Both the position numbers and the translations under genes were made by a program. A DNA stretch of 50,808 bases from Gammaproteobacteria bacterium (GTDB lineage: Bacteria; Pseudomonadota; Gammaproteobacteria; UWMA-0217): contig JALSHZ010000110.1 in assembly GCA_026981985.1 (NCBI GenBank), positions 1 through 50,808 on the forward strand, read 5' to 3'. Below are positions 1,897 to 34,997 of this stretch, in pieces (within the stretch, counting starts at the first letter, position 1; each line of letters begins with the position of its first letter). The notes beneath the pieces were generated by a model. It saw only the letters and a list, made by a program, of their open reading frames with translations. It did not search any database and had not been told where the DNA came from.

Positions 1897-2156
1897 GAAC
1901 CCTCTTTCCCGGATTCGTCGCGCACACTGGCCTCTGGCGCCGTGGGTGCTGGCGGGGCTGTGCCACGGCGACGCTTTTTCGCTGGTCCGGCCGCCTTGCG
2001 TTTCGGGCTAGATGCTTCCTCGCGGGCATCGAAATCGGGCCTGCTGGCCGACCGCGTGGATGGGCCGGACCGGCTGCGATGCGCGCTGCCGGGCGTGACT
2101 TCCTTGCACTCGTGGATTTTTCCGGCTTTCTTGCCGGGTTTGTCTTCTGCGCTCAT
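1893..2156 (-). CDS. Small basic low-complexity protein
   Basis: This 87-residue protein is rich in Lys, Arg, Ala, Pro and Ser, with a basic cluster (SPKRKAAGPAKKRRRG) at about residues 49-64. It has no hydrophobic segment and looks intrinsically disordered. It is accepted as real because both ends form ATGA overlaps: its start overlaps the stop of the TauE gene and its stop overlaps the start of the propeller gene. That arrangement is hard to explain unless this frame is translated. The basic tract could bind nucleic acid or an acidic partner. Similar basic tracts occur at the C-terminus of the 3331-residue protein and the N-terminus of the 1245-residue protein nearby. No family is recognised. 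Confidence 0.55.
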   Translation of the reverse strand: MSAEDKPGKKAGKIHECKEVTPGSAHRSRSGPSTRSASRPDFDAREEASSPKRKAAGPAKKRRRGTAPPAPTAPEASVRDESGKEGS

Positions 2157-2875
2157 GTTGCCACCAGCAGCCGACCGCTGTACCCGGCCATGGCTGTCCA
2201 GAACAGCACCGCGTAGCCCCGTTCGCCCACACGCTGGTTGATGCTGCGACCCAGTAGCGTCGCCCCGATCATCACCGGAACCAGCAGCGCCGCAAGCATG
2301 AGTTCAGACCTGCCGAGCAGGCCGGCATGCGCGAATACGGATGCCTTCGTGACATCACCCAGCAACGACACGATGGCGGCCGCGCCAATGAAATACTGGC
2401 GTTGCAAATCAAGGCTGCGAATCGCGATGCCCTTGAGTGGCCCCGAGGTTCCCGAGAAGCCGGATGTCGTGCCGGAAGAGAAGGCCAGAATGCCAGCCCA
2501 GCGCTTTTTCGCCGTGCTTGCCGGCAGAAAATCGGTTGCGAAGGTGGCAAGGATCATCACCAGCACCATGCCGGTGACCCAGTTGGTCGGCGCGGTCACC
2601 ATCAGGCCGGCGCCGACGGCTGCCCCCAACATCACTGCCAGGGCGATCATGGCAGCCGCTCGCAGTGGCAGCGTCTTGCGGTAGGCACCAAGCTTGGCCA
2701 GATTGTTGGCTGCCAGCAGCAGTGCCGCCAGTGCGACGCCTTCCTTGGTGCCCAGCACCGCCGCCAGCGCAGGCACCAGGATCAGTGAGCCGCCCAACCC
2801 GGCAGCGGAAGAAAACATGAAGGCCGCGGGTACCGCGACCAGCAGTAGCAGCATTGTCGGCATGTCGAAAACCAT
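2153..2875 (-). CDS. TauE/SafE family membrane permease
   Basis: The product is a 240-residue polytopic inner-membrane protein. It has the paired glycine-rich hydrophobic segments typical of TauE/SafE (DUF81) transporters: SSAAGLGGSLILVPAL near residue 22 and SGTTSGFSGTSGPLKG near residue 133, the two half-repeats of the family. Seven or eight membrane helices are expected, and the length is close to the family norm. Family members move sulfite, sulfoacetate or other organic anions, but the substrate cannot be read from sequence. The start at 2875 follows a strong AGGAGG. Its stop overlaps the next gene by ATGA, so it opens a three-gene coupled unit with the basic protein and the BNR propeller. 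No sulfonate-degradation genes are nearby, so a sulfur role is not supported by context. Confidence 0.85.
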   Translation of the reverse strand: MVFDMPTMLLLLVAVPAAFMFSSAAGLGGSLILVPALAAVLGTKEGVALAALLLAANNLAKLGAYRKTLPLRAAAMIALAVMLGAAVGAGLMVTAPTNWVTGMVLVMILATFATDFLPASTAKKRWAGILAFSSGTTSGFSGTSGPLKGIAIRSLDLQRQYFIGAAAIVSLLGDVTKASVFAHAGLLGRSELMLAALLVPVMIGATLLGRSINQRVGERGYAVLFWTAMAGYSGRLLVAT

Positions 2876-3058: not shown

Positions 3059-6000
3059 TCAGTGGATTTGCGTGCCGGGTCGTCTCCAGCAGCTGATCAG
3101 GCGCGCTGCCGCATGCGGCCAGTTGCGAACTAAGCGGTCGACACGGTCGATGGCGCCGCTGGGCGTGGCGGAGAACGGGTCGGCGGTCGAGCCCGCCAGC
3201 GCCAGCAGCATCACCCGGTTGCCGCTGGGGATCGATGTCAGGTCGATGTCGATCGCCACGGCACGCGGCATCCGCGCGCTCAGTGGTACGGCGAGCCGAT
3301 GCAGCGGCGTCCCATCGGCGGCCAGCTGGACATTCCAGCCGGCAGGCACCGGTGCGGCAGTGCCGCTGACGAGGCTGCGGGCATAGTCGGGGATGGTGCT
3401 GCAATCGCTGGCGGTGAGTTGGCTGCCACTCCTGTCCGTGCGCCATAACAGCACGGCAAAGGCCTCGTTGGCGGGCACCGGGCGGGTATCACGATGATGC
3501 AGCAGCACGTCGACGGTGCTGGGTTCATGGTAGACCTGCCAGACATTGTTGCGCTCGCGGCGGGGAATCACCGTTTCCAGCAGGTCGATTTCGGACGCTG
3601 GCAAATCCGGCACGAGTGCATTTTGCCAGGCTGCCCGGTAGACGGCCGGATGGCCAGCCTCGTCTGTGGCCGCTGTCATCACGGCATTCCACAAGTCGGC
3701 ATCGATGCGACGATATCCTGGCAGTCCCAGCGAGCGGCGATGGCGTTCGACCAGATCACCAAACTGGTCGGTCCAGCGACCGTCCGCAATCACGCTGGGG
3801 TAGAGCCAGCGAAAGGCGGTCTGAAAGGTCCACAACTGATAGCTGAAGCGGCTGTTGTAGAGGTTGGTACCACGAAATGACGGTGTATTCGCCACCGGCG
3901 CCCGTGGCCTGATCGTGATATCGGGGCTGCAACTGGGGGAAACGTCGGGCGCGCTTGGACTACGGCGCGGGTTTTTCATCGGTGTTGGCAGTATCCGGCG
4001 ATCATCGCGCGCATGAACACGTAAATAGGTCCGTGTCACTTCCTGCCGCGCCAGATCGACCTCCCAGACGCCGCGCGACTGTAGTGCCGCGCGCAACAAC
4101 CGTGGCGCATCGGCACCGCCCGCCGGATCGGTCCAGATGGTGAGATCCTGCACCGCATTTTCCGGCAGGCCGTTGACGACCGGTGTCCAACTGCCATGCG
4201 TATTGGTGGCCGGGTTTCTGGTCGCCTGCCACACGCCGGTGACGGTGCCGACATAGACGGTATTGCTGTTGGCCGGATCGACCACCACCGCATAGGCCGG
4301 GTCAATCGGACTGTTGGCGCCGCTGCTGGGTGGGGGCAATACCTGCCCCAGACCAGTGGTGCGAAAACCGCCGGCGCTGTCATCGTAGTAGAAGCAGCTG
4401 TCAGCGCCGGGGGTGGGTGGTGTACCTGGCTGCCACTCGCTGGTCTGGCCGGTACAGCTGAGGTAGAAGTCGTTGCTGCCGGGTACTGGGGCGATATCGG
4501 TGAAAAAGGTGGCTTCAGGGATTACCAGAGGCGAGGTCGCCGTCATTCCCGGGGCCAGCAGCGTAGTTGAAGTCCAGTTGCCGGGATTGGATGGGTCTTC
4601 GTTGTAGCGCAGCACACCGTGTCGGTAGAGTGCCAGCAATGTCGTCGGGTTCACCCATTTGACGGTGACCACGTAGTCCAATGCTGGTGATGCTGGCACA
4701 CCGAAACGCATGTTGGCTGGGCTGCTCGGCGTCCGGTTGCCAGGCCTTGGATCGCGTGCCGGTGCAAAGGCCCCCGGCGCCGTGATCGGCAGAACTCGCC
4801 AGCTATTCGGGTTAGCCGTGCCCAGATCGTCGGTTACCCAGACCCGGTTGGTGCCAAGCGCGATGCGAGCGTGGCTGCCATCGGCCTTGGCGATGGTGTC
4901 GATATCCGAGTAAAAAGTTGACGCGGCATTCTCAGGATCTGTTGCGGGCGAAGGCGGGGCGGTAATGGGCGGCACATAACGCGCGGAGGGGTCGCAGGCC
5001 CAGCTGCCCCGGATGAACTGTCCCATCACATAGTGCGACTGTATCGGGTGGAAGATGACGCCGCCGCCATCGCCCTGCATGCTGGTTTTGAGTTCCCAGA
5101 CGGTATCACCCACGCGTACCTGGCAGCCATTGTCCTGGCAGCCGAGCATGGCGAAGTGGCTCGATGTCGGGTGCGAAGCGACAAAACCTGCCTCGATCGA
5201 CGCCAGCCCCACATTGCGTGAGGCAAAGGTGTTGGTCTGACCCTCGCGCAGCGACACGAACACCCCGCCGTCGCAGGCCACCCATACCTGCCGCGTACTG
5301 CCATCGGCGTTGGTCGCCTTGCGCAGCGCATGCACATCGGGATGCATGCCATTACCGATCAGCCCGGGTACGTCCGCGCCGTGGTGGGTGCCTGCCGGCT
5401 GATCGGAGATGCCTTCAGCGGGCAGCAGTGCCGTGCCGTTCACATCGAAGGCCCAGATCGAGGCATTCCAGTTGCGCAGCCAGATCAGCGAGCCGCCAAT
5501 ATACACCCGATCGAGCCTGGCTCCGCCGCTACCGTCGTGGGTGGTTACCATGATGGCCTGGTCGTAATCGCGCTGTCCGGGCCATAGCTGGCTGCTGGTC
5601 GGCATGCCCGATAGTGGCGCGGCTGTGGGCGTGGTTGCGGTGGGGTTGGTGATCCGCCACAGATGTGCCACCAAGCCGCCGTCGCTGCCGGGTGTTATGT
5701 CCACTTCGCCCAAAACATATACGGTGTTGTTGTCGTCGTTGACGGCCAGGCTCATGCGACCAACCAACACGCTGGTGGCCGGCAGCCCCGTGTTGAGCGT
5801 CATGGTGATCCAGCGGAAGCTTGCGCCATTGTCGTCAGAGATGGAGACACCCGAACCGCGGAAACAGACGAACAGTCGCGAGCCGATGTAGAGCAGGTCG
5901 GTGGGATCGCCCGGGCTGCTGACGCCGCTTGGTGCCGGCGGGGCACCAGGGAATGACAACGGCACCCAGTCGAAGCTGCCGACCCCGGCGTTGATGCTCC

Positions 6001-6796
6001 GGGTGCCGATGAACAGACCCGCCGACGTGGCTGCAATCACACGGTCGCCGTTCTGTCCCGCCGTCGTGCCGGGGACGCGTGCCATGCGGGCGATCGATAC
6101 GCCTTCGAACACATCGATCCCGGTTGCGCTCTCCCAGGGGTCGGCTTGCGCTGCCTGCGTACCCGGCGCCGCGGCGACCAGCACGCCCATGCCCCGCATC
6201 GGTGCTTCATTGGCCGGTGCCTGAAATGCGCCGATTTCACCGGTGCCAACCATGACGAAATCGCTGGCGGCATCGCTGCCGAAATCAACCAGCAGACAGC
6301 CGCAGGCAAAGACACTGGTATGACCGCCAGCGCGGCGCGGTTCGCTGGCCCAGCCGCCCAGTGGCTCCCAGGTGGCGCCGCCATCGCCGCTGTACCAGAC
6401 ACCGCCTTTCGCGGTCGCGGCATAGGCGCGTTGGCCATCCGGGCTCACGGCAAGGTCCCGCACCCGTCCCGAGACCCGGGGGCGTCCGTCGGCCTGGCCA
6501 CGGCGTACCGCCGAAGGGCCGATCGGTACCCAGCGATTGAGGTTGCTCGACGGAAAAGCGAGTGGTGCGGGTGCTGCGCGTGTCGCTGGCCCGGTTGTCG
6601 TCTCTGCTGTCCACAGGCCTTGCTGTTCCATCAGTAGTGCCATGGAGCGCCGCAGCGCATCGCTGTCGACATAGCCGCTGGCAGCGGCAACGAATGCCTC
6701 ACGCGCGTCGGCATGCTTCTTCTTCGCCGCCTTGCGGGCGAGCCGACGCTGGCGTGCTTGCTGCTCTTCCGCGCTGGGACGATCGATATCAGCCAT
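3059..6796 (-). CDS. Large BNR beta-propeller protein, last gene of giant operon
   Basis: This is a 1245-residue protein. A basic N-terminal helix (QRRLARKAAKKKHADARE, about residues 16-33) is followed by about 900 residues of BNR/Asp-box repeats: YSGDGGATWEPL near 135, SISDDNGASFRW near 335 and WVTDDLGTANPNSW near 650. The propeller resembles VPS10/sortilin-like or photosystem-assembly-type BNR proteins rather than catalytic sialidases. The C-terminal 350 residues differ. A stretch near 980-1040 (FQTAFRWLYP through RIDADLWNAV) recalls a peptidoglycan-binding-type fold, but this is tentative. There is no signal peptide or membrane helix. The start at 6796 has GAGGAA upstream and overlaps the stop of the previous gene by 8 bases, so it is coupled to it. 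A scaffold, adhesin or substrate-binding role is possible but unproven. Confidence 0.75.
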   Translation of the reverse strand: MADIDRPSAEEQQARQRRLARKAAKKKHADAREAFVAAASGYVDSDALRRSMALLMEQQGLWTAETTTGPATRAAPAPLAFPSSNLNRWVPIGPSAVRRGQADGRPRVSGRVRDLAVSPDGQRAYAATAKGGVWYSGDGGATWEPLGGWASEPRRAGGHTSVFACGCLLVDFGSDAASDFVMVGTGEIGAFQAPANEAPMRGMGVLVAAAPGTQAAQADPWESATGIDVFEGVSIARMARVPGTTAGQNGDRVIAATSAGLFIGTRSINAGVGSFDWVPLSFPGAPPAPSGVSSPGDPTDLLYIGSRLFVCFRGSGVSISDDNGASFRWITMTLNTGLPATSVLVGRMSLAVNDDNNTVYVLGEVDITPGSDGGLVAHLWRITNPTATTPTAAPLSGMPTSSQLWPGQRDYDQAIMVTTHDGSGGARLDRVYIGGSLIWLRNWNASIWAFDVNGTALLPAEGISDQPAGTHHGADVPGLIGNGMHPDVHALRKATNADGSTRQVWVACDGGVFVSLREGQTNTFASRNVGLASIEAGFVASHPTSSHFAMLGCQDNGCQVRVGDTVWELKTSMQGDGGGVIFHPIQSHYVMGQFIRGSWACDPSARYVPPITAPPSPATDPENAASTFYSDIDTIAKADGSHARIALGTNRVWVTDDLGTANPNSWRVLPITAPGAFAPARDPRPGNRTPSSPANMRFGVPASPALDYVVTVKWVNPTTLLALYRHGVLRYNEDPSNPGNWTSTTLLAPGMTATSPLVIPEATFFTDIAPVPGSNDFYLSCTGQTSEWQPGTPPTPGADSCFYYDDSAGGFRTTGLGQVLPPPSSGANSPIDPAYAVVVDPANSNTVYVGTVTGVWQATRNPATNTHGSWTPVVNGLPENAVQDLTIWTDPAGGADAPRLLRAALQSRGVWEVDLARQEVTRTYLRVHARDDRRILPTPMKNPRRSPSAPDVSPSCSPDITIRPRAPVANTPSFRGTNLYNSRFSYQLWTFQTAFRWLYPSVIADGRWTDQFGDLVERHRRSLGLPGYRRIDADLWNAVMTAATDEAGHPAVYRAAWQNALVPDLPASEIDLLETVIPRRERNNVWQVYHEPSTVDVLLHHRDTRPVPANEAFAVLLWRTDRSGSQLTASDCSTIPDYARSLVSGTAAPVPAGWNVQLAADGTPLHRLAVPLSARMPRAVAIDIDLTSIPSGNRVMLLALAGSTADPFSATPSGAIDRVDRLVRNWPHAAARLISCWRRPGTQIH

Positions 6797-9700
6797 TGTC
6801 TTCCTCGTTCATGATCCGAATCCAGCCTTCCTGAATTTCATGCGGCATGCGCGGCAGCAATGCCGACTGGGTTGCCGAGACGATGGGATCATCGCGCCAG
6901 GTCAATGGTCCGGTGCGGCGCGTGAATTGCTGTTTCTCGCCGAGCAGACTCACTTTCGGCAGACGGATTTCCTCAGGATCGACCAGCACCGGCCCGACCC
7001 GTACCGAGGGGATGACCCGTTGCAGCCCCTTGCTCACCCAGCTGTCGCTCAGGGCCAGGGCCTTGCGCGGCAGAATGCCGGAGGTCAGATGCACGCGTCC
7101 GGCTGGCAGCATCAGCAGGGTCAGCCGGATCACCTGTCCGGGACGGATGTAGAAAGTATCGTCCGGCGCCAGCATGGGGTGCGACAACGGCACGATACCG
7201 GGCAGCGTCACCTTGCCCAGCAGACCCAGCTGGCCCCGATGGATGCCGACATCGCGGGCCGTCGCAGCCACCGCCTTGTCGATCAGATGGAACTGTTCAT
7301 AGTCGTCATCGAGATAGAAGCCGAGCAGGGCATCATCGCTGCGTTGCAGGTCGCCGAGACGCACCGGAAAACGCTGTTCCTTGAGTGCTTCGAAAGCTGC
7401 GCGCCGTTCTTCCACCCCGCCAGGGGCGGTGACGATCACTTCATTGAGATCATCGGGCACATCGAGCCGCAGCGTCGCCTTGACCACGGCGATTGGACGT
7501 CCGACCAGCCCGGCCACGGTCGCGGAACCGGTCGTGCCGTAGGTATCGACCGTCCACAGCGTCGTGTCGATGGCGCGCAGCAGCGTGGTCAGTGTGCTTT
7601 CGGCGGGCGTCGTGCCGCTGGCGCGGTCGCGGATGTCCTCGCGCACGATGGCGGCGGCCATCTGTCCCAGTGGCAGCGCATCCGGTCGTAGCTCAGCGAG
7701 CGGCCCGGCACCGGGCGGTACGGGGCGTCCAGGCGCAGGCTCCCATCGGACTGCGCCGGTGATCTCGTGATGGCTCAGTTGGCCGAGTGCATTGCCATCG
7801 ACATCGAACATCTCCAGCGCCTCGTCGATGTGATCCGGCAGCAGAAATCCGGCCACCGGATTGACCGCCAGCGTCGGCTCCAGCTGATTGACGAAGGCTT
7901 CCGGCGCATTGGCCGGATCGCCGCTGTAGGCCGGGTCGACAAAGCGCAGCAACCAGCGTGCGCCATGCTGTATCCGGGGCGGAATCCTGATGCTGGCGGG
8001 CGCACCGTCGACTTCGAGGGTCGTGGTGGTCAGCGCCTTGCTGACGGGGACGTCGAGGGTGCGACCAAAGGCATCCACCAGCCGCAACGCGGCGATTCTG
8101 ATGGTGCCGCCGAACAAGGGCGTGGGCGCAGCCGTGGCGACGGGGGTATCGTCCTCATCGACGCCGGTGCTGAGGTTGCCGACGTAGTCGATGCCGAGTA
8201 GTTGTTCGCGGATGCCATCGAGTGACGCCGACGCCAGATCCAGCGGTTCGAGAAAATCGGCGAGTGCTTCGAGTGCCGACTGCTGTGCCGCGTCGAGCGC
8301 CGCGTTGGTGGCGTCGCGCGCCTGTTCGGCTTCGATCCAGCGTTCGATGCCCGCATGCAGGGCGGTGGCCAGGCCACGCCCGATGGGGCTGCGGCCGACG
8401 AACTCGAAGGCCTTCGGCTGGCTTGCAGCGCCCGGTTTTCGTGCCAGGTCGAGGTCGTCCAGCTGCCAATCGTCGAGTGTGTCCGAGCCGACCAGTTCCA
8501 CCCGCCACTCCAGCCACAGCGGTATCCACGGTTGGCGCCAGGCGGTGACGCCGAGCGGGCTGGGAGGGGTGCCTTGCAGATAAGAGGCGCGTGCAAGCTC
8601 TGCCGCAAGCTGACGTGACACGATGCGGTCATAGCCGGATACGCTCTTCCAGTGATCGCCTGCCACGGCCCGCGGGCGGGTTGAACGTGATGATGTCGGT
8701 GCCGTCGACAGGGTGTATTCACCACTGCCGTCGTAACGGCCATCCGGTGAAAACAGGCGCAGCATCTCGGCCTCGATGCGCATCTGATATTGCGGTTGTG
8801 CGGCTGTATCGTCTTCTGCGGCGGCAGCGGCCAGCCACGCGCTGCAATAGGGGTTGAGCGTCACCGCTTCGCGTACCACCGTCAGCACTTCGCGTGGCAG
8901 CGCGCCGGAGCCCAGTGTCGGCACCAGGCTGGCAGCGTCGATGGTGCCCTTGATCGACGTGATGGCCTCGCTCGGATAGCGGCAGCGCAGCCGACCGGCA
9001 TCGTCATAGAGACCGTCCTGATGATGTCGCAGTGATGGCTTGGCGCCACGTACCGCGACAATCGGTGCCTGTGGCCGGAACAGCCGTGGTGCCGGGCGGG
9101 TGACGGTACGACGTTCGGCTGTCTTGCCGTCGGCAGCGGCGAGGCTGATGTTCGGCGCGGCGGCTTTCGGAGCGGCACCGACCGGCGCGAAGCGCACCTT
9201 GTCGCGCCATACGGGGATCGGGTTCAAGTCGAGCTTCAGTTCGGTCGCTTTGATGGCAGCGCGCCCTTTGCGGCCGACCGAGGTGGCGCTGATGGCGCTG
9301 GAATCTTCCACCCGCAGTTCGTCCGGGCGGGCGGCGGGCAATGGTTTGCCGGGCAGCGACCAGAAGGTATCGGCATGCTCGCGTTCGGCGATGTCGCGCA
9401 TGCCGTCCGGGCTGCCGAGGCGATCCAGCAGATCGCTGGTGAATGCCGCCGCCAGCATTTCCACGGCGCCGCGCTCGCTGTCGCTGGCATCGCTTGCCGC
9501 CGCGCCGAGGGCGGCCACGATGTCGTCGGTATCGTGACCAATGGCGATCGACAGGGCGGCCGGGTCGGGGCGCTCATCGATATTCGCGGGCGCTTCGCCA
9601 ATGGGTACGCCGGTCACCATGCCATGCAGCAGCGACAGGAAGCGTGGTTCACGCTGCGCCAGCACCACGCTGGCGGGGTTGTCGACCGGCAATGCGGGTA

Positions 9701-10613
9701 CGGGGGCGATATCGGCGTAGTTGAAGGTTTCTTCGCGTCCCTTGACGAAGATCCTGGTTGGCGCTGCCTGTTGTGGGCTGTCGAAGCCCGCCATACTGTA
9801 GAGGCGCTTCAGCACGGGCGGATCGGGCTCGGTGGCCGATTCGTCCGCCTCGGGGTCGAGGTACCAGCCCAGATCATAGAGCCGATCGAGCAGCTCGGAT
9901 GCGCCGCTGGTGTTGATTGGATCGGCTGTGGTGTCGCTGTACCAGCCGGCCACCACATAGGTGGCCACATCGCTGGTAAAACCCTCGGTCGCCGTTTCGC
10001 GGAGGCTGTCGAGGTCGTCGAGCGGGTCGTGGAAACCGAAGCGCCCGGCACTGGCGGAATAGGATGCGGTCCACAGCGGTGACCCGCCGACCGTGCCGTC
10101 GAGCCGCTCGAACGCCGGCATCTCTGGGTTGTCCGCGGTATTGCCATCGAAGCCATCGAGTGGCGTGACCGAGCCCTTGCGTGCATCGACCACCCAGCCG
10201 CGCAGCATCGGACGACTGATGCCGACGGGATACAACACCCGCATCACCACCCAGCGGTCGGGCAGCAAGGTCATCTCCAGCTCGTCGCTATCCGCTGACT
10301 CGCTGCCGCGCAGCAGGGCATCGGGCATGGCCCAGTGGAGGTGAATGCCGGCGGCGGGTTTGTCGCCATCGGCGAAGGGCGGGGGATCATCGGGGCCGCC
10401 GCTGACCGGCACCAGCGTCTCGGCCGGATTCTCGCTGGCGACATAGGCTTGCACGTCGATCGGCACCAGCACACGGCGGTTGCGGGGCAGCTTGCGGTCC
10501 CAGGTTACGACCGTTTTGACATCGACATCTGCCCGCACCAGCCATGCCCAGCGTGGGCTGTAGACCGCCTGTTGGAGATTTTCCGGTTGCAGCAGGAAGT
10601 TGAACATTGTCAT
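6789..10613 (-). CDS. Giant-operon protein of unknown function (1274 aa)
   Basis: I do not recognise a named domain in this 1274-residue protein. Visible landmarks are GIHLHWAMPDALL near residue 88, VVAGWYSDTTADP near 218, a region rich in Ala and Glu near 770-800 (EQARDATNAALDAAQQSALE) that could be helical, and a beta-rich C-terminal third. There is no signal peptide, membrane helix or cysteine pattern. The composition is soluble and slightly acidic. The gene begins 4 bases after the previous stop. An ATG at 10607 (MFNFLLQP) has a better-spaced GAGG and may be the true start. It overlaps the following BNR gene by 8 bases. Its size and coupling suggest a structural or assembly component made in step with its neighbours, which is inference only. 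Confidence 0.8.
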   Translation of the reverse strand: MTMFNFLLQPENLQQAVYSPRWAWLVRADVDVKTVVTWDRKLPRNRRVLVPIDVQAYVASENPAETLVPVSGGPDDPPPFADGDKPAAGIHLHWAMPDALLRGSESADSDELEMTLLPDRWVVMRVLYPVGISRPMLRGWVVDARKGSVTPLDGFDGNTADNPEMPAFERLDGTVGGSPLWTASYSASAGRFGFHDPLDDLDSLRETATEGFTSDVATYVVAGWYSDTTADPINTSGASELLDRLYDLGWYLDPEADESATEPDPPVLKRLYSMAGFDSPQQAAPTRIFVKGREETFNYADIAPVPALPVDNPASVVLAQREPRFLSLLHGMVTGVPIGEAPANIDERPDPAALSIAIGHDTDDIVAALGAAASDASDSERGAVEMLAAAFTSDLLDRLGSPDGMRDIAEREHADTFWSLPGKPLPAARPDELRVEDSSAISATSVGRKGRAAIKATELKLDLNPIPVWRDKVRFAPVGAAPKAAAPNISLAAADGKTAERRTVTRPAPRLFRPQAPIVAVRGAKPSLRHHQDGLYDDAGRLRCRYPSEAITSIKGTIDAASLVPTLGSGALPREVLTVVREAVTLNPYCSAWLAAAAAEDDTAAQPQYQMRIEAEMLRLFSPDGRYDGSGEYTLSTAPTSSRSTRPRAVAGDHWKSVSGYDRIVSRQLAAELARASYLQGTPPSPLGVTAWRQPWIPLWLEWRVELVGSDTLDDWQLDDLDLARKPGAASQPKAFEFVGRSPIGRGLATALHAGIERWIEAEQARDATNAALDAAQQSALEALADFLEPLDLASASLDGIREQLLGIDYVGNLSTGVDEDDTPVATAAPTPLFGGTIRIAALRLVDAFGRTLDVPVSKALTTTTLEVDGAPASIRIPPRIQHGARWLLRFVDPAYSGDPANAPEAFVNQLEPTLAVNPVAGFLLPDHIDEALEMFDVDGNALGQLSHHEITGAVRWEPAPGRPVPPGAGPLAELRPDALPLGQMAAAIVREDIRDRASGTTPAESTLTTLLRAIDTTLWTVDTYGTTGSATVAGLVGRPIAVVKATLRLDVPDDLNEVIVTAPGGVEERRAAFEALKEQRFPVRLGDLQRSDDALLGFYLDDDYEQFHLIDKAVAATARDVGIHRGQLGLLGKVTLPGIVPLSHPMLAPDDTFYIRPGQVIRLTLLMLPAGRVHLTSGILPRKALALSDSWVSKGLQRVIPSVRVGPVLVDPEEIRLPKVSLLGEKQQFTRRTGPLTWRDDPIVSATQSALLPRMPHEIQEGWIRIMNEEDNG

Positions 10614-10617
10614 TGCC

Positions 10618-11589
10618 TCATGGCTTGAACACGCCGGTCACCATGTCGATGTACTTGATCGTGGGTCGAAACACCTGGCCGATCTCATCATTGTCGACAT
10701 CGCCAAACACCTGCCGCCAGGGGAAACGCACCAGTTGCAGCGCATACTCGGCGCTGTCGAGGCCGTCAGCCGCGCCGGTGGCTGTTTCCTTCGCCAGCGC
10801 CTCGGAGAGCCGGCGGATATCGACCACCCCCGACGAACCAGCGCGAAAAGGGACATCGATATCCTTCGAGCCATCCTCCGCCAGATAGTCGAATGTGGCC
10901 TTGTCTCTGGGACGCAGCGTTGCCTTGCGCTGATTGCCGTTGTCCTCGTGCATGAAACCAAACTGGATGCCCTGGCGGGGTTCCTCGATATGCACCACCT
11001 TGGGAATGCCGTCGAACAGGCACAGCAGCACTGCCGGAGCCAGACGTTCGAGTCGCAGCAGGCGGATGCGACGCGGATCGTCTTCGTCGTAGCGCGCGCT
11101 GTCGCCTTCTGCGGGATCGACATCGAAGGCGCGGACATGCAGCCCCGGCCAGCCGGAGACCGCGGAGGAGCGCAGCAGGAAACCGCTGATCGGCCCGGCT
11201 TTGCCGCTATGGCGTTGATCGTCGGGATGCTTGCGCAGATTGCGCTCCTCGACGTCGAGTTCGGCGCGGATGGCTTCATACTGGGCGTTGAGCTGGATGC
11301 GATCATCGCTGTTGATGGTGCCGACGCTGAGCGCGCCCTGCACCAGCGCATCGGTCCAGCGCCGATCGAGGTAGAACCAGCGAATCGATTCGGGCGGCAG
11401 CAGTTCGCTGTCGGCCACCAGGTAGGCGAAAGGCACATCATCGAGCAGCCGCAGCCGCACCAGCCAGTTGCGCAGCTCGGCTGGCATGGCGCTGTCGTCA
11501 TCGACGGCGAAGGCAGTCTTCGGCACTGCGCTGGCGTTTTCCAGTTGCAGCCCGAGGTTTTCCAGGATGTCGAGTTTGCTGTTGCTCAT
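10618..11589 (-). CDS. Giant-operon protein of unknown function (323 aa)
   Basis: This 323-residue soluble protein has no recognised domain. Its most distinctive segment is LLPPESIRWFYLDRRWTDAL followed by VQGALSVG, near residues 67-95, then a probable helix (DDRIQLNAQYEAIRAELDVEE). A mixed alpha/beta second half includes SGWPGLHVRAFDVDP and LLCLFDGIPKVVHIEEP. It ends in RPTIKYIDMVTGVFKP. No signal peptide is present. The start overlaps the stop of the 672-residue gene by ATGA, with GAGGAT six bases upstream. It is the smallest of the four central proteins and could be an adaptor between the larger ones. From general memory, the 'WFYLDRxWTDAL...GALSVG' pattern recurs in other bacterial hypothetical proteins, but I cannot verify this here. 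Confidence 0.78.
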   Translation of the reverse strand: MSNSKLDILENLGLQLENASAVPKTAFAVDDDSAMPAELRNWLVRLRLLDDVPFAYLVADSELLPPESIRWFYLDRRWTDALVQGALSVGTINSDDRIQLNAQYEAIRAELDVEERNLRKHPDDQRHSGKAGPISGFLLRSSAVSGWPGLHVRAFDVDPAEGDSARYDEDDPRRIRLLRLERLAPAVLLCLFDGIPKVVHIEEPRQGIQFGFMHEDNGNQRKATLRPRDKATFDYLAEDGSKDIDVPFRAGSSGVVDIRRLSEALAKETATGAADGLDSAEYALQLVRFPWRQVFGDVDNDEIGQVFRPTIKYIDMVTGVFKP

Positions 11590-13604: not shown

Positions 13605-13605
13605 T

Positions 13606-16600: not shown

Positions 16601-19600
16601 TTGCTGAGTTCGCGCAACTCTTGCAGCGGGCTGGTGGAAACCGGCGCTGCCGGGTCGAGTGCCTTGATGAACGGGTACTCATTGAACTTCGCCAGATCGT
16701 CCGGAACACGCAGCCCGCGGTTGATGCCGAGTCCGCCGCCGATACCGGTGACGAAGAACGCCGGTGGGCCGCCGATCGGCCCCAGCACAGCACCGAAGAC
16801 GAAGAATGAAGGCGAACCGTTGTCATCGGTATAGCCGCCGAACAGTGACAGCCCGTAGACCGAGAAGCGCCCCATCAGCATGCCCACATAGCTGATCGTG
16901 CCTTCCAGATCGGTCTTGAGCAGGCCGCCTGAAATGGAGATGCCGCTCATATCGGCCGAGATACCCAGGCCTTGCAAGTCTACCGCCCAGTTGCCGACAT
17001 CGAAGACATCGCCGCCCAGCCAGTGCAGGCCGAGCTGGTCGACCTCGGCGCTGAGGCCAAACAGTGAGACGCGCGCATCGAAGAGCAGGGAAATGCCCGT
17101 GATCGAGCCGTTGACTTCGGTGGTATCGAAACCAAACTGCTCCAGATAGAGTGGCCCCAGTTGACGTTGCACGGCGACCCACCAGGGGCCGGGCGGATCG
17201 CCTGCCCGCAGCGAAATACCAAGGTCGCCGCCGGGTGGTTTCTGCACCGCAAAGGATGGGCTGAATGCCGGCCGCGCCGCCGGTGATGCCGAGTCGGCGG
17301 CATCGCTCATCAGCGTGTTGGCGACCGTGTTGTTGCCACTGCCCGCTGCGGGGCTGAAGGCAAGGCCATCGAGTTGCACCTGTATGCCGCCGCCGAGCTG
17401 GTTGCCTGCAATGCTGCCGTAAGTGTGTACCGCAATGGCGTCGATGGCCATGGTGCCAAGATTGAGCAGTGGCCCGGATGTTTTGCCGACGCGAATGCCC
17501 AATCCGGCGAGATCGACCGACGCGTCCAGCGTGAAAACGTCACCGACCTGTTTGAGCAGGTAGACGCTGAGCCCCGGTTCGATGCCGGGGGCAGTAATCC
17601 AGTCGGCGACAATCTCAAGCTCAATGGTGGGATCAGCGCTGCTGAGCGGGATGCGTTTGCCGGCATCCAGCGAGACGACAATCCCGGCGACATTGCCTTT
17701 CTTGTTGAAACCGATATGCAGCGTGTCGTCGATCGTGATGCCGATGCCGGCACCGGCCAGGTTGAAGGCCAGCTGATAGAGCCGCTTCAGCAATGCATCG
17801 GGGTCGGCAAAGTCCGCGAACAGCTGGGTGTCGAGCGTGGTGCCGCCACTGAAGACAACACCTTGCAGCACGTCGACCACCTGGTTGCCCAGCGGGTCAA
17901 GTGCATCGAGGGCGATATTGCTTGCCATCGACACCGCCTGGGACAGCAGCGCGAGCGCCACGCTGTCGAGGTCGCTGTTTTCGCTTTCGCTGCCTGCGGA
18001 ACGCTCGACGGTGACCAGACGGGGTGGCATGGCATCGAGTCCCCAGCGGGCTTCGACACTCTGCTCGCCGCTGGCGTCGGTGATCAGGCCGACGCCGAGC
18101 AGGCGATCGAAGCCGCTGCCGGTCACGCCCGCGCGGATGGTGATGACTGGGCGCAGTTCGAGACCGTTGCCGACATCGAAGCCGCTGGCGCTGAAACGGC
18201 CAGCAACGCGCACACCGTCCAGGCCAAGCCGCACGGCGTCGACGCTGAGGGTGCCGACATCGCCAATATCGATCGCGCCGCCGAGTTCGATCGCCGGGCC
18301 CGAGCTGCTGCCATCGAAGGTGAGCGAAAACGCTGCACTGGCGCCAAACGTCAGCCGCTTTTTGCCGCTGCCGGCAGCGACGACCTGGATGAGATTACTA
18401 TCCGGGTCGAGTGCGCTGGCGAGATTGTCGATGGCGCTGACCACCAGGTCGCCCAAATGCGCCATCAATATGGCGGCAGGATCGGCGGCAAAAGCGGTGA
18501 TTCGGGCTTCGCTGAACTCACCGGATTCGAGCAGGTCGAGCGCCTCGCCGAGGTCGAACAGCGCCTGGGCAACGTCGCTCATCAAGGTGGCGGGGGTGGT
18601 GCTGCGTTCGGCGATCAGTGCGTTGAGCACGGCTGGAATCGCCATCCCCACGCCAGCCCCCAGCAGAGCGCCAAAGCCGGGACCGCCCGGGAAGATCGGC
18701 AGTGGTGCGGTGGGTGCCGGGCGCAGCATATCGAGACGCAGGCTGGGCGCGATGGCGAGTGCCAAGCCACGCTCGTCGAAAGCCAGCGATGAGGTCAGCA
18801 GCGGCGCCACACTGCCGCTGGTTTCGATCGTCAGCCCGCCGTTGATCCGCAATTGAAGATCGGCGCTGTCGAGGGAATGATTCACGGCGACATCGATGCT
18901 GAGATTCAGGCGTCCGTCTGCCACGCCATAGCGCAGCGTGATGTCGTCGCTCAGTGGCCAGCCGGGTCCGCTGCGGCTTGGTGCGACCAGTGGCACCAGC
19001 GCGTCGAATGTCGCCACGGCCTGTCCGAACGGATCAGCGACCCAGCCCGCCGCTGCGTGCTGTAGCCAGGCGGCAGGATCGAGGAACAGCGCCCAGGGCA
19101 GCCGTATCCGGCCCCGCGCCGTCTCGGATGCTGCGGGTTCGAGCAGGCTCAGGCCATCGAGCATGGTGTCGATGGTGTCCGATGCGGTAGTGGCTGCACG
19201 GTCGCGCATATTGTCGACGAAGCCAGCGATCAGCGTTGCCGGGAGCAGTGACGCGGCCAGCTTGATCAGCTCATCCAGCTTGTCGCCGGGGGCGAGCAGA
19301 TCGATGCTGGATGGCGCCGCTGCGCCGGGCAGTTGCCAGGCGATATTGAGCGCGCCCGAGGTGGTCGGGCTGGTGGTGAATGCTGTCTGTAGCGCAATGC
19401 CGCCGGTGGGCGGGTCGATCGTCCCCAGCGCCGCATCGATGCTCAATTCGCCGGCAGCGGCGAGCGACAGGGAGAGCTGCATCGGCGGCAGGTCGGGTGG
19501 GGAATGTGACACCACCACGCCAACGTTGCGTGTTTGCAGGTCGATGGTCACGGTGGCCAGCTCACTGCCCCAGTGGAGCGTGCTGTCGTCGCCGTCGAAA

Positions 19601-22600
19601 CCGCCAATGCGCCGCAGTACCGCTGCAAACGCGGCGGCATTGTCGTTCAGCATCGCGTCGATCGTCGGCATTGGGTCGAACAGCAGGCGTTCGCAGCCCA
19701 ATGGGTCGTAGCCGCCATCGCGTATCAGGCCCAGCAGGGTGAACAGTTCGACAAGCTCAGTCGATGCTGCCGTCAGCCGGGCAATCACGGCATCGAGGAG
19801 AATATGCGCTTCAGGTGTGGGCAGTGTGGCACCGGCTGCTGCGCTGGCATCGATCACCCAGCGGGGCCGCCGTACACCAAAGCAGTTGGCTTCGTGGAGG
19901 GTCAGCTCGACGCTGGCTTGTTCTGCCGTAGCGCCGAGTGGCAGGCGGATCGATGCTGATGCCCAGCGTACTTCGACTTCCTGCTGCAATGCGCCGGGGC
20001 CGCCGGCCAGCCAGCCGTCGGTCACGCCGAAGTGCAGCTCGATTCGCAGCTGCGGTTCATTGTGTGCCGCGAAGCCTGTGCCGCTGCTGCCGCGATCGAA
20101 GGAGACCAGTTCGAGCGTGGCGCCGGCACCGATCAGTATGCCACTAAGATCCAGGTCGAAAACCGGTACATCGACACCGAGATGCAGCGAGTCAGGCGGC
20201 TGTGGCGGCTCCGTGCGTGCTGCATAGCGGTAGTCGATGGCGTCGGCGATCAGGGCCGCCAGCCCATTGCCGACATCGTCTGCATCGAGCAAGCCGAATA
20301 CGGCGTCGATGGCCAGTCCGGGGCGGCGCGGAATGCTGCTGGCATCGGGCATCTCGCCCAGTGTTGTACCGGCAAAACCGGCGGCAGCGATGGCCTGATC
20401 GAGAATCGTCTGCATCTGTAGCAGCGGATCGGCTTCCAGCGCGATGAGTTCTTCGCTGGTTGTCTCGTCGCTGCCCGGCCGGCGGATCTGTTCCAGCAGG
20501 CGCAGGGCGTCTGCGCTCAGGCCAGACGTAAAGCCGCTGATACTGAGCTGCGTCCAGGGGCTGCCGACGGTGACGACACGTGTGATATGGCTGTTGCTTC
20601 GGGCTGCTTCGAGCGCGGCTGCGCCAGCGGCACCGTAGGCGATGACGGTAATGTCGGCGCTGCGGTTGGCCAGTGCTGCTTGCAGACGTGCGGCCTGTTC
20701 GCCGACGCCGCCGCGATCCGGGCGCTCGGCCGCCGCGGCAGCTGGCAGCGGCAGTGCCAGCGACCAGTGGCCTGTGGCGCTCGCCGCGATGCTGGCTGGC
20801 GGTGTTTCGCTGCGGGCATCGATGCTGTTGGCGTCGAAGGCGGTTGCCCAAAGATCCTCGCAGCCGACATAGAGGATGCCCTCCGGTTCGGTTTCGGACA
20901 CTTCGATGGCGAACATGTCGATGGCGCCCAGGGCGACGAGTTCCCGGTAGCTGTAGCCGTACAGGTCGATGCCGTTGACATCGTCCGGCAGTACCTGGGG
21001 CCGGCCGAGCAGGCCGTCAGTGCCGATGAAGCGCCCGGCCAGCAGCGCCAGACCTTCGTCGAGCCGGCTGCGTGCCGTCAGCAAGTCGCGCAGATCAGGC
21101 AGCACCCGGGCGGCATCACGCAAGGCTTTGACCAGCGTATCGGCATCGGGCGCCTCATCGCTGTCGAAGTAGCCTGGTGGTGGTTCATAGCGATGCAGGG
21201 GCAGGGGACAACCGGGCTCGAGCCAGGCAGCCAGACCGGGTGCCCGCGGCTCGCCGGAGATGGCGCTGCGGAACGGATCTTGTGCATTGCCGCTGCCCAG
21301 TGGTGTCGAACGCTGAAAACCGCTCAGCAGATAGGACAATGGCCCCAATGCAATGCGGATGTTGTCGCAGTCGAGCACCAGATCGGCCAGCCATGTCCGG
21401 CAGGCGGCTGCGGGATCGCTGATCAACTCGGTAAGACGCAGGCGCGCGCCCTCTCCGGTCCAGCCGATGAGTTCCAGCATCACGTCGATGACGGGTGATC
21501 CAAGGCGGCGAAGCAAGGCGGTGAGCGCGGTTTCGAGCTGCTGCCAGTCGGGTGCGAAGTCGATGCTGCCGTCGCTGTTGAAGCGTGGTAGTGGCAGGTT
21601 GATGGCTGGCAGCTCGAAACCGGAGGCGTCGCTGTCGTCGACTTCCAGCGCCAGACCAGGGGCGTGCACGGCGATGCCGATGCCCGCGCGCGCCGACCAG
21701 GCGACTTCGATACCAAATGCTTCTGCCAGTAGATCGGCGGGGCCAATATCGAAACGGGCAGTGCTGCGATCGCTGCGGCGAACCAGGAGCTGGCCTGCGC
21801 AGCCACTGCAAAAACGCGCTGACGGTTCAGCCACGTCGATGCGCGCCAGGCTGACGCGCGCGGCGACGACGGTTTCGTAATCGTCGAATACGGTTGTCTG
21901 AATGTCGACAACAAGGTCGACGGCGATCTCGTTGTCTTCGGTCCAGATCGCGAGTTCAGCCGGGGCGATTGGCAGGCGCCAGGGATCGTCGCTGCTGCCG
22001 CTGCCCGGGAGTGCGTTGCTGTCACCGGTCAGCAGTTCGCGCGCCGCTTCGAGGACTTCACCAAAGGCCGCGCTGTCAGCCATCAGGCTGGCCCAGTAGC
22101 CGCGCACGGCAGCAAGCGGATCGCTGAGAATGTCGGTCGATGCCAAAGCGTCAATGCTGTCAGGCGGGTTCAGCCCGATCAGTATTGCGGTGAGTTCACC
22201 CGGTCGGCCCAGATCGTTGAGCGCATTCAGCAAGGCGGCATCGACCACCGCACTGGCGGCGTCGAGCGCGGCGTCGGGGCTTGACAGATCGAGCAGTGGA
22301 TGGCTGGCGCCGTTGAGCGTGACGTCGTGGGCGGTGAGCGCAAAGGCTGGACGGCCTTCGCTGAGTACAAAGCCGACGTGCATCGAACCGATTGCCGGGT
22401 CGCCCGATAGGAGTGGTGATGCGCTGCCCGCATCCGCGCCAAAGACGGCGGCGGCGTCCAGCGCCGGAAAGGCGACGACACTGGCGCTGCTGGTATCGGC
22501 TGTGAGGAGGTCGGCTGCCACTTTGACTGCGGCACCGTCGCGCGGTTGCAGCGTGGCTTCGATCCACGGCGTGATTTGAATGCCTCCGCCAGTCGTTGCC

Positions 22601-23601
22601 GCAACCCGCAGGCCCACGGCTGCCTGTACTGACCCCACGGTGAAGGTGATTGCATCGCGTGTGGCGTCGAGGCTGCCGCCAAACAGATTGGCAAATTCAC
22701 CGAGCCAGGCATCACGGGATGCATCGTTGCTGACAATCGTTTCGAGCCAGTTGACGAGGGCGGGAATGCCATCGCTGAGCAGCTCTTCGAGCGGCAACGG
22801 CGGAATATCCGTGACCAATCGCAGCCCGAGCAAGGCTGAAAGGGCGGCAAACGTGCTGGTGTCGCTGTCCCCCGTTTGCAGTGCTTCGGCTTGAGCCTGG
22901 ATCAGGCCGATCAGGAATTCGAGGACTTCCGGGCCGAGTGCGTCGAGCGTATCGATATCGAGCGCAAGATCCCGGGCTGTGCTGGTGCCCGGCAGTTGCA
23001 GGCGACGCAGCCCCAATGCCAGCGAGAACTCGCCCGCAGCCGCCGTGGGGATCGATGCGGCGAGGTAGACACCACCGAGAAACAGTTCTCCCGTTGTGGG
23101 GGCGTCATTCGAGATGGTGAGGTCGAGGCTTAGTTCGATGTCACCACCGGCGCGTCCCAGCAGTAACCAGTCGGGTTGTGAGCCGGAGGTATCGAGGCCA
23201 CTGCCGCCTTCGCGCGGCAGCTGGAAGACGGGGACGTAGGCGCGTACCGATACCGCAGGGGTCGCGTCGCCGCTGGCATATTCCAGGCCGAAGCCGACAT
23301 GCGCCACCCCGCCCAGGGCTTCGATGACGACGAATACGGTGGCACCCGAATCGGCGAACAGCGGCAGCCAGACCGCTTCATCACGCTGACTGCGATCGGG
23401 CGCGCCCAGTACCTCGTCGACGAATGCCAGCAGTGCTTCGCGCTGGTCATCGGCGTAGATGATCGAACGCAAGCCGGGCTTGCTGCCGTCGGCGCTACCG
23501 AGGGGATCTTCGAACCAGTCGCCGTTGAGTTCGCCGTTTTCGGTCAGGCCGATGGCTTCGGCCAGGCTGGCAAAGACATCGAGCTCGGTAGAACCTTCCA
23601 T
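13606..23601 (-). CDS. Giant 3331-residue protein with DUF6603-like region
   Basis: The largest gene in the window encodes about 350 kDa. It lacks a signal peptide and membrane helices. Long stretches alternate short beta-strands with Asp/Gly turns. Residues about 2140-2610 (LEQFGFDTTEVNGSITG through PPAFFVTGIGGGLGINRG) match my recollection of DUF6603, a region found in very large proteins. Residues about 980-1015 recall an alpha/beta-hydrolase nucleophile elbow, but the usual GxSxG reads AYGAAGA. Two related modules lie near 495-554 and 729-797 (GSGSSDDPWR and GSGNAQDPFR). A lone CSGC occurs near 600. The last 30 residues are Lys/Arg-rich. The ATG at 23601 follows GGAGG and lies one base past the previous stop. 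The frame is intact for 10 kb, which argues for selection. Function unknown; a rod-like scaffold or a hydrophobic-ligand conduit are guesses. Confidence 0.85.
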   Translation of the reverse strand: MEGSTELDVFASLAEAIGLTENGELNGDWFEDPLGSADGSKPGLRSIIYADDQREALLAFVDEVLGAPDRSQRDEAVWLPLFADSGATVFVVIEALGGVAHVGFGLEYASGDATPAVSVRAYVPVFQLPREGGSGLDTSGSQPDWLLLGRAGGDIELSLDLTISNDAPTTGELFLGGVYLAASIPTAAAGEFSLALGLRRLQLPGTSTARDLALDIDTLDALGPEVLEFLIGLIQAQAEALQTGDSDTSTFAALSALLGLRLVTDIPPLPLEELLSDGIPALVNWLETIVSNDASRDAWLGEFANLFGGSLDATRDAITFTVGSVQAAVGLRVAATTGGGIQITPWIEATLQPRDGAAVKVAADLLTADTSSASVVAFPALDAAAVFGADAGSASPLLSGDPAIGSMHVGFVLSEGRPAFALTAHDVTLNGASHPLLDLSSPDAALDAASAVVDAALLNALNDLGRPGELTAILIGLNPPDSIDALASTDILSDPLAAVRGYWASLMADSAAFGEVLEAARELLTGDSNALPGSGSSDDPWRLPIAPAELAIWTEDNEIAVDLVVDIQTTVFDDYETVVAARVSLARIDVAEPSARFCSGCAGQLLVRRSDRSTARFDIGPADLLAEAFGIEVAWSARAGIGIAVHAPGLALEVDDSDASGFELPAINLPLPRFNSDGSIDFAPDWQQLETALTALLRRLGSPVIDVMLELIGWTGEGARLRLTELISDPAAACRTWLADLVLDCDNIRIALGPLSYLLSGFQRSTPLGSGNAQDPFRSAISGEPRAPGLAAWLEPGCPLPLHRYEPPPGYFDSDEAPDADTLVKALRDAARVLPDLRDLLTARSRLDEGLALLAGRFIGTDGLLGRPQVLPDDVNGIDLYGYSYRELVALGAIDMFAIEVSETEPEGILYVGCEDLWATAFDANSIDARSETPPASIAASATGHWSLALPLPAAAAAERPDRGGVGEQAARLQAALANRSADITVIAYGAAGAAALEAARSNSHITRVVTVGSPWTQLSISGFTSGLSADALRLLEQIRRPGSDETTSEELIALEADPLLQMQTILDQAIAAAGFAGTTLGEMPDASSIPRRPGLAIDAVFGLLDADDVGNGLAALIADAIDYRYAARTEPPQPPDSLHLGVDVPVFDLDLSGILIGAGATLELVSFDRGSSGTGFAAHNEPQLRIELHFGVTDGWLAGGPGALQQEVEVRWASASIRLPLGATAEQASVELTLHEANCFGVRRPRWVIDASAAAGATLPTPEAHILLDAVIARLTAASTELVELFTLLGLIRDGGYDPLGCERLLFDPMPTIDAMLNDNAAAFAAVLRRIGGFDGDDSTLHWGSELATVTIDLQTRNVGVVVSHSPPDLPPMQLSLSLAAAGELSIDAALGTIDPPTGGIALQTAFTTSPTTSGALNIAWQLPGAAAPSSIDLLAPGDKLDELIKLAASLLPATLIAGFVDNMRDRAATTASDTIDTMLDGLSLLEPAASETARGRIRLPWALFLDPAAWLQHAAAGWVADPFGQAVATFDALVPLVAPSRSGPGWPLSDDITLRYGVADGRLNLSIDVAVNHSLDSADLQLRINGGLTIETSGSVAPLLTSSLAFDERGLALAIAPSLRLDMLRPAPTAPLPIFPGGPGFGALLGAGVGMAIPAVLNALIAERSTTPATLMSDVAQALFDLGEALDLLESGEFSEARITAFAADPAAILMAHLGDLVVSAIDNLASALDPDSNLIQVVAAGSGKKRLTFGASAAFSLTFDGSSSGPAIELGGAIDIGDVGTLSVDAVRLGLDGVRVAGRFSASGFDVGNGLELRPVITIRAGVTGSGFDRLLGVGLITDASGEQSVEARWGLDAMPPRLVTVERSAGSESENSDLDSVALALLSQAVSMASNIALDALDPLGNQVVDVLQGVVFSGGTTLDTQLFADFADPDALLKRLYQLAFNLAGAGIGITIDDTLHIGFNKKGNVAGIVVSLDAGKRIPLSSADPTIELEIVADWITAPGIEPGLSVYLLKQVGDVFTLDASVDLAGLGIRVGKTSGPLLNLGTMAIDAIAVHTYGSIAGNQLGGGIQVQLDGLAFSPAAGSGNNTVANTLMSDAADSASPAARPAFSPSFAVQKPPGGDLGISLRAGDPPGPWWVAVQRQLGPLYLEQFGFDTTEVNGSITGISLLFDARVSLFGLSAEVDQLGLHWLGGDVFDVGNWAVDLQGLGISADMSGISISGGLLKTDLEGTISYVGMLMGRFSVYGLSLFGGYTDDNGSPSFFVFGAVLGPIGGPPAFFVTGIGGGLGINRGLRVPDDLAKFNEYPFIKALDPAAPVSTSPLQELRELSNYFPPEAGNLWFAAGISFSSFALVDGVAVVSVSFGSGLEVNLLGLARMALPRPEAALVSIELGLLARFSTEDGQFLIQAQLTDNSWLLYPEVRLTGGFGFATWWKGPNAGQFVLTLGGYHPSFSRSGYPIVPRLGLEWRVTDEIVIKGASYFALTSEALMAGVDIEVSADYGYAWVRIAFGANAIVYFDPFYFIADAYARISAGLKIKTFLGTIRFSISIGARIEVEGPRFHGKAVIEIGPCDITVKFGSSSKEPGVYVDWAGFVPKYLEQTTPGHASVISAVTGQGSLPASTGGDTSAPSSDGSAERPFEVFAEFELTVVTTVPTTGFNFGAAVDSISINPMLSNGSSTRLGLSPMNASELTSTLAFRLDHWDGSKWVDQTGELAPLVRDMKEEARAGSGPSFALDAFPIGVWGEPEDSDQPSSPIPQGEVIFAGSRVKMVAAADIQGITGPEIDYYRVESGRRPLPLSATGNSRQLLLGEAATLGIATFADDSITALAAAEKQLFGEPRVVPGLLGQRRRSATARASYARSRSAPPLFGSLAEGIAPRNGKRSDVAIMPAPPTVVGKTPRAPFVASYLTAGAGVGSRVSATTVANQRIKRRPAPSTDSVRGRLGRSLPIKLTSTAPAPVISDNTVILRGSVPQTNAGGLARSYRGGHVGSSVGGALVAGLSAGLPARAAAGGRRPRALAPGGRLRAGDVISLRLPDAAIDTDAARPRLSVDGEARVVLLRGNGAVLADQLVSNTDIDIPPGAAIVAAQANGGRRDVDTPGGMPVIGWHNESRIARLGGHSALAAGSVLHIEGASGKTRIGWAFAADVVRGAAAVSTRFALAEVRTVGVILRGSEARRLEDFGIELHGATRATNNNGEPIEPVVVQAGNRSMLLFQIVPDAQRSDFVLRITTGGTRQIAGVIGTLASVDELADLIAERGLVPIVARLRAVSGDGCTLSWEQPAPPVHGDSSPSGPAPKATTKKSVSKKSTRKKRVKRHKDKPARGDS

Positions 23602-23602
23602 C

Positions 23603-24202
23603 TCAGGCCTCCGCGCTCAGCTTGTGACGTGCAATGGGCTGCACCAGCAACTTGCCCGGTGCGGCGGCGATACTGCCGGGCACCAGAGGGCGTCCGCGTT
23701 TGTCGTTGCCAACGGCGCCGGCGATCACGCTTGCCGTTTCGAGCAGGGTTTCCCAGGCGAAAGCAACAATGGCATCGTGCCAGGTATCGACGATTGCCGC
23801 CGGGCCTTCGAGATCGGTGAATGTGGTCATCACCAGGCCGGCGGGCGCTTTTCGCGTGCCGACACCCAGGGGGACTGGAATGCCAACACGCTTGTGTTGA
23901 TCGCATTCGACCGTCGCGGTAATGGTGACGACGCCACTGGAACAGCGAATATTGGTCCTGTCGCTATGGACGAGCAGTTCGTTCCGGCCAAGCGTCCAGA
24001 CTACGGTCGGCGTCGAGCGACGCGGCAGATCCAGCACCCGTCTGACGACGGAATGAACGATTTCCCGGGCGTCGCTGACCGGGACTTCGATGGTCGCTGG
24101 CGCGAGATCGCCAGCGTCGAGTACAACCCCCTTGTCGAGTTGATGAAACCAGTCGAACTGGCCGAGATCGACTCCCACAACCCTCATGGACGCGTTTGCC
24201 AC
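23603..24202 (-). CDS. First gene of giant operon, unknown 199-aa protein
   Basis: This 199-residue protein starts with GTG at 24202, eight bases after a strong AAGGAG. An internal ATG at 24187 (MRVVGVDLG) is an alternative start without as good a ribosome site. No signal peptide or membrane helix is present. Mixed alpha/beta composition is visible: VVGVDLGQFDWFHQLDKG, then STPTVVWTLGRNELLVHSD, then a central beta stretch (SGVVTITATVECDQHKR), and a C-terminal helix around TWHDAIVAFAWETLLETA. No family is recognised. As the leading gene it sits directly behind the putative promoter. Its stop is one base before the start of the 3331-residue gene, so it may be a chaperone, assembly factor or regulator for the giant protein. 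That role is inferred only from position. Confidence 0.72.
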   Translation of the reverse strand: MANASMRVVGVDLGQFDWFHQLDKGVVLDAGDLAPATIEVPVSDAREIVHSVVRRVLDLPRRSTPTVVWTLGRNELLVHSDRTNIRCSSGVVTITATVECDQHKRVGIPVPLGVGTRKAPAGLVMTTFTDLEGPAAIVDTWHDAIVAFAWETLLETASVIAGAVGNDKRGRPLVPGSIAAAPGKLLVQPIARHKLSAEA

Positions 24203-25071: not shown

Positions 25072-25073
25072 TG

Positions 25074-25523: not shown

Positions 25524-25538
25524 GGTGTTGCCCTCGAA

Positions 25539-28166: not shown

Positions 28167-28257
28167 GGTCTTTCCCCTCAAGTTAGACGGTTCAGTGATT
28201 TGTGTGAACCCTGGCCATCTTGCGGTGGCAGATCGGCCATTATTATTCGTTGTTGAG

Positions 28258-28284
28258 CCGGGCGGAGAGGAGATCTCCGCCCGG
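28258..28284 (-). promoter_or_regulatory. Stem-loop between binding-protein and permease genes
   Basis: A perfect 11-bp stem (CCGGGCGGAGA at 28258-28268, TCTCCGCCCGG at 28274-28284) lies between the TAXI gene and the permease gene. No U-tract follows it in the direction of transcription. Such intercistronic hairpins commonly protect the upstream message, giving more binding protein than permease. That role is inferred. Confidence 0.55.
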
Positions 28285-28299
28285 TGTTTTGCCGTGGCC

Positions 28300-29280: not shown

Positions 29281-29400
29281 CTTGGTTCCTCTTGAAATTG
29301 AATTGCCAGTCTTGCGTTTGACATTGGTAGTATCACCCAATCTGCTCAGGATTGGATCGTGTTGTAGAAGCAGTTATGCAATCCTTTACATCGCTTCGCC

Positions 29401-29742: not shown

Positions 29743-29769
29743 GGAAATGCTGTTGGTTGGATGCAAATA

Positions 29770-34996: not shown

Positions 34997-34997
34997 A

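Follow-up and report, generated by a model that had tools for sequence, protein, structure and literature searches.

P2, the largest protein of the operon reported here, is a full-scoring member of DUF6603 (PF20248; 393.7 bits, E 1.5e-117, against a curated cut-off of 27 bits), a family catalogued only as a domain of unknown function and named in no paper found by a literature search whose scope excluded subscription papers and preprints. In predicted build, P2 resembles ApoB-100 and LPD-3, which are likewise giant proteins with a long amphipathic beta-sheet, but it differs from them in overall architecture (TM-score ∼0.1, no sequence match), in being bacterial, and in being encoded in an operon with P3-P5. 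The predicted amphipathic antiparallel meander of P2 also resembles those of LptD and porin-type barrels, from which P2 differs in having no signal peptide and in having homologues in Paenibacillus and Actinomycetota, which are without the proteobacterial outer membrane. There is an analogy to extracellular contractile injection and Tc-type systems, which are likewise large assemblies encoded by several genes without leaders and accompanied by exchangeable accessories; unlike them, P1-P6 gave no PHROGs or Pfam match to sheath, tube or baseplate proteins, and no spike homologue, a further mark of phage tail-derived injection systems, was found among the core genes with these libraries.

Layout and extent of the operon

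The window is the whole 50,808-nucleotide stretch of DNA that was analysed. The first-pass annotation had described six same-strand genes at 3059-24202 encoding 199, 3331, 672, 323, 1274 and 1245 residues, and an ORF check found them exactly so, on the minus strand with P1 first and P6 last (Table 1). The junctions, described as overlaps or gaps of 1-4 bases, are indeed tight (P1/P2 +1, P2/P3 +1, P3/P4 −4, P4/P5 +4 and P5/P6 −8 bases), such that P1-P6 are mostly translationally coupled. All six are leaderless, and the earlier statement that they have neither signal peptide nor membrane helix was borne out by a hydropathy scan, in which no N-terminal hydrophobic leader or convincing membrane helix was seen and the highest 19-residue hydropathy was 1.96, in P2. 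The P2 N-terminus (MEGSTELDVFASLAEAIGL...) likewise lacks a hydrophobic leader, and thus no Sec/BAM-type signal peptide was recognized. A chance ORF pattern is ruled out because the genes are conserved protein by protein across phyla.

The six genes are present but do not delimit the same-strand run, which goes on through a TauE/SafE family permease, an 87-aa ORF and a 405-aa protein. Because this tail also follows P6 in Marinobacter and Ketobacter, where small ORFs occupy the position of the 87-aa ORF, the operon probably extends to all nine genes; homologues of the 405-aa protein also follow P6 in some Intrasporangiaceae. To the right of the operon, positions 24601-30868 encode a TRAP transporter DctM, an NMT1-like solute-binding protein, a cytochrome c'-like protein and a porin, and positions 35575-50230 hold a polysaccharide biosynthesis cluster (WbaP-like sugar transferase, glycosyltransferases, Wzy_C ligase, flippase and chain-length-type ATPase).

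Table 1. Features of the operon and its probable tail, in positions of the window
Feature	Position	Strand	Description
P1	23603..24202	−	199 aa, GTG start, without family match
P2	13606..23601	−	3331 aa, carries DUF6603
Alpha/beta-hydrolase-like region of P2	19972..21174	−	YGAAGA in place of AHSxxG of homologues
DUF6603 domain (PF20248) in P2	15784..17172	−	P2 residues 2144-2606
P3	11586..13604	−	672 aa, undescribed family
P4	10618..11589	−	323 aa, undescribed; the small core protein with the highest conservation
P5	6789..10613	−	1274 aa, undescribed family
P6	3059..6796	−	1245 aa, BNR/Asp-box, sortilin-like propeller; accessory
TauE/SafE family permease	2153..2875	−	240 aa, probable operon tail
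87-aa charged ORF	1893..2156	−	between the TauE and 405-aa genes
405-aa leaderless protein	679..1896	−	propeller-like (judged by eye)

Distribution and history of the P2-P5 core

An alignment of P4 (seven rows) was scanned against 84,980 species genomes, giving 153 candidates from which 80 loci were kept. Conserved order in distant taxa, which the first-pass annotation had named as the result that would support a system, was evident: P2, P3, P4 and P5 occur in the same order and on one strand at 74 of the 80 loci, five others being truncated by contig ends, and at the remaining locus (Moorena) P5 is encoded nearby but on the other strand. According to record titles, the hosts belong to Pseudomonadota, Actinomycetota, Acidobacteriota, Gemmatimonadota, Chloroflexota, Verrucomicrobiota, Bacteroidota, Bacillota, Cyanobacteria, Myxococcota and Planctomycetota, and one copy is in a Euryarchaeota MAG, possibly through misbinning or contamination. 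Some copies reside on large plasmids, in Streptomyces, Embleya and Paenibacillus; the Paenibacillus plasmid record annotates the homologues as DUF6603 and hypothetical proteins.

The distribution of DUF6603 is sporadic (9 of 398 Pseudomonadota genomes), and homologues of P3, P4 and P5 lie beside it in all eight Pseudomonadota genomes other than that of the window, as well as in genome G077. DUF6603 was present in every P4 genome tested (30 of 30), usually as one copy per genome, and occurs once in the window's own genome; three second copies elsewhere also have P3-like neighbours, with weak matches in two. Scattered singletons, the pattern that was to count against a system, were therefore not seen, P3-type neighbours being found at every DUF6603 gene checked. 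P2-P5 are co-inherited in fixed order in ten or more bacterial phyla; the data strongly support the conclusion that they are one functional unit, and it is near certain that this core is one system. The proposal of a fixed set thus holds for P2-P5 but not for the outer members: P1 immediately precedes P2 at most loci with a large P2, and P6 is present at 39 of the 63 loci whose contigs leave space for it. Fusions of P3 to P4 occur at five loci (Paenibacillus, Marinomonas and a Planctomycetota MAG among the fused forms) and in genome G353, which suggests that the two proteins contact each other.

In a tree with approximate branch support, the window P5 and those of Marinobacter and Ketobacter are nested together in a well-supported clade that otherwise consists of Actinomycetota and Gemmatimonadota. 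GC3 is 0.70-0.77 in the operon genes versus 0.60-0.67 in the genes to the right. A congener (G163) is syntenic over 25093-36010 and carries a pyruvate-carboxylase-like gene (judged by eye) at the operon's place; the left boundary of the operon lies near the contig end. From the tree placement, the higher GC3 and the operon-free congener site taken together, we conclude that the operon was probably acquired horizontally.

Protein families and predicted structure

Pfam searches of P1-P6 returned DUF6603 and one sub-threshold BNR repeat and nothing else. P1, searched as a single sequence, had no match in Pfam, NCBIfam, PHROGs or PADLOC, and, one borderline chance match aside, no Pfam family was found in 28 members of P5 or in 56 rows of P3/P4. 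Profile searches of the PDB with the P3, P4 and P5 alignments gave no convincing match (mL55, at E 0.037, was taken as chance), and hhalign found no shared domain among the three. P4 127-141 and P5 913-927 are alike over 15 residues (GFLLRS and GFLLPD), and this stretch is a possible hint of a short motif common to both, its hhalign score being not significant. A model of the Paenibacillus P3-P4 fusion (pLDDT 76.5, pTM 0.56) gave only CopC-like and Ig-like patches in Foldseek and VIA searches, with Z at most 4.8. For P6, the family profile matched 3b7f (E 5.5e-10) and a homologue matched Sortilin-Vps10 (E 1.1e-15), the window P6 alone being below the Pfam cut-off; from these profile matches we identify P6 as a BNR/sortilin-type propeller.

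Secretion, phage-tail and defence identities were dropped, as family, phage and PADLOC searches gave no matches, including none of the operon proteins to PADLOC models of anti-phage defence. The description of all six proteins as unrecognized therefore stands for P1, P3, P4 and P5 and fails for P2 (DUF6603) and P6 (propeller). Membership in one already described system, the other outcome that was to count against the proposal, was not seen in PHROGs, PADLOC or phage records. As far as could be checked, P1, P3, P4, P5 and the operon are undescribed alongside DUF6603. An order kept in ten or more bacterial phyla, and in one archaeal MAG, marks an undescribed gene set, and the earlier interpretation of the locus as an undescribed system is supported.

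P2 has N-terminal repeats of ∼230 residues (hhalign), in a part of the protein for which multi-TULIP repeats were considered as a candidate identity. It is unusually hydrophobic yet has no convincing membrane helix: its mean GRAVY over 76 loci is +0.19, versus −0.27 to −0.40 for P3-P6, and exceeds the 95th percentile (0.16) of non-membrane neighbour genes. An AlphaFold2 model of residues 1470-2640, of modest quality (pLDDT 79.6, pTM 0.46), contains blocks of long strands with helical segments between them; the predicted architecture of P2 is one of long, amphipathic beta-sheets interspersed with such segments. Strand amphipathicity exceeded that of shuffled sequences (z = 7.3, a value to be read knowing that any buried sheet is amphipathic and that the comparison had no beta-sandwich control). 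With this model, Foldseek matched ApoB100 (E 6.9e-7, with TM 0.10 and rmsd 47), LptD (E 6.8e-6) and LPD-3 (E 4.5e-3), as well as S-layer and porin proteins, with TM-scores mostly 0.06-0.15 by query length and large rmsd. VIA-align matched porin-type barrels (Z up to 13.7, rmsd ∼10, ∼270 residues). Such matches indicate local strand-pattern likeness in a predicted structure and are not proof of homology; likeness to ApoB and porins may be a generic outcome for long beta meanders. Profile searches with P2 1-1469 and 1470-2640 returned no solved ApoB or bridge-like lipid-transfer protein among their matches.

The first-pass annotation saw no obvious catalytic motif, which needs amending for P2. 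Residues ∼810-1210 align with homologue domains that carry AHSxxG...VTLGTP and give sub-threshold PGAP1, LCAT and abhydrolase matches (below Pfam cut-offs). The nucleophile-elbow serine is missing in the window, where YGAAGA aligns with AHSxxG of five homologues; the Variovorax dokdonensis homologue is an example with the serine intact. By these alignments, the insert is a putative degenerate alpha/beta-hydrolase-like domain that looks active in relatives.

Candidate functions of the assembly

The genes after P5 or P6 vary by lineage. Leaderless genes for an astacin/matrixin-like protease and for a GH10 protein (Pfam) occur there in some lineages, and the variable genes also include BNR propellers, a 460-aa protein that looks Ig-like and glycine-rich proteins (the last two judged by eye). 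In one clade, a class-3 lipase (Lipase_3, Pfam) and FAAL/ketosynthase-like genes (by eye) adjoin the operon. A crude leader test was positive for 8 of 71 downstream genes versus 65 of 351 genes of the wider context, a modest difference. Several leaderless glycine-rich, collagen-like proteins and a class-3 lipase lie beside the operon in L093 (17445-20798) and L097 (17384-20816). Five loci (L104, L105, L109, L110 and L111) have fatty acyl-AMP ligase/ketosynthase-like genes downstream of P5, to which some add SDR and aspartyl-hydroxylase-like genes (all by eye); the hosts with such neighbours are Bacteroidota, Janthinobacterium and Methylobacterium, and a linked biosynthetic cluster is possible.

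We tentatively propose, at less than even confidence, that the horizontally transferred operon encodes one assembly of several proteins that binds lipid and is fitted with leaderless accessory enzymes that can be exchanged. Lipid handling is the best single reading of the P2-P5 unit because P2 is hydrophobic and sheet-like, with a putative lipase-like fold, and because some lineages have lipases and lipid-synthesis-like genes next to the operon. P2 would bind lipid on its hydrophobic sheet faces, as ApoB-type and bridge-like lipid-transfer proteins do, and P3, P4 and P5 would bind P2 and cap or organize it; the roles of P3 and P4 are guesses, since the two gave no structural match. The hydrolase-like domain, with its serine lost in the window, could act on or sense lipid esters, and the variable leaderless downstream genes (propellers, metalloprotease, GH10, class-3 lipase) could supply cargo or recognition parts. 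Ordered translation would be followed by cytosolic assembly on P2 and lipid loading, and finally by presentation of lipid or cargo to a membrane or its release. In a more specific version, which we consider rather doubtful, bacteria would have their own form of lipoprotein particle or soluble lipid conduit, in which a beta-sheet scaffold of 1000-3300 residues with dedicated partners and an embedded lipase or pseudolipase would form a cross-phylum cassette with lineage-specific accessory enzymes.

The main rival of lipid handling is a released cargo complex, and both can be true. Here a cytosolic P1-P5 scaffold would carry exchangeable leaderless hydrolases or propellers to other cells or polymers, as a delivery particle or exo-enzyme complex released by lysis or another route. 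The varying accessory slot, which encodes usually-secreted types (astacin/matrixin, GH10, class-3 lipase) as well as BNR propellers, and the core proteins without signal peptides are consistent with this idea. However, no gene was recognized as encoding a tail tube, sheath, baseplate or ATPase and PHROGs gave no match, accessory genes are missing from several loci, and the cargo role of the accessory proteins is putative, so that we regard it as rather unlikely.

It is improbable, in our judgement, that P2 is a self-inserting beta-barrel pore for membrane attack, its partners P3-P5 acting in assembly and as immunity proteins or chaperones. The VIA-align match of the DUF6603 region to barrels of 16-18 strands, the amphipathic strands and the hydrophobic composition would fit; yet the rmsd of that match (∼10) is large, no toxin-like neighbours were recognized, and a single-chain barrel of this size without a signal peptide, placed after a part of 2000 residues, would be unusual. 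An outer-membrane barrel as a universal reading was dropped, given the absence of signal peptides and the existence of Gram-positive homologues.

An intracellular structural body, or a storage or lipid-droplet scaffold in which the sheets only pack against one another without export or lipid transfer, would account for the leaderless core, the usual single DUF6603 copy and the lack of recognized secretion genes nearby, but a static body is a poor match for the P6 propellers and for accessory genes of enzyme type, and we judge it distinctly unlikely. That the operon derives from or is related to a phage or tail-like element, as the large co-directional, structural-looking genes and their sporadic distribution might suggest, is highly improbable given no match in 50,697 phage records, PHROGs or IMG/VR (P4 pattern), no match of the P3-P4 model in the viral library BFVD at E≤0.001, and a spread over many phyla and one archaeal MAG.

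The operon is a fixed, mobile set of several families without a described function in ten or more phyla, with one protein of more than 3000 residues. If the lipid-handling reading is true, bacteria would own an ApoB-like scaffold system, and if the delivery reading is true, the operon would represent a new class of cargo-carrying assembly. Because P2-P5 form a clear genetic unit, their function is directly testable under either reading.
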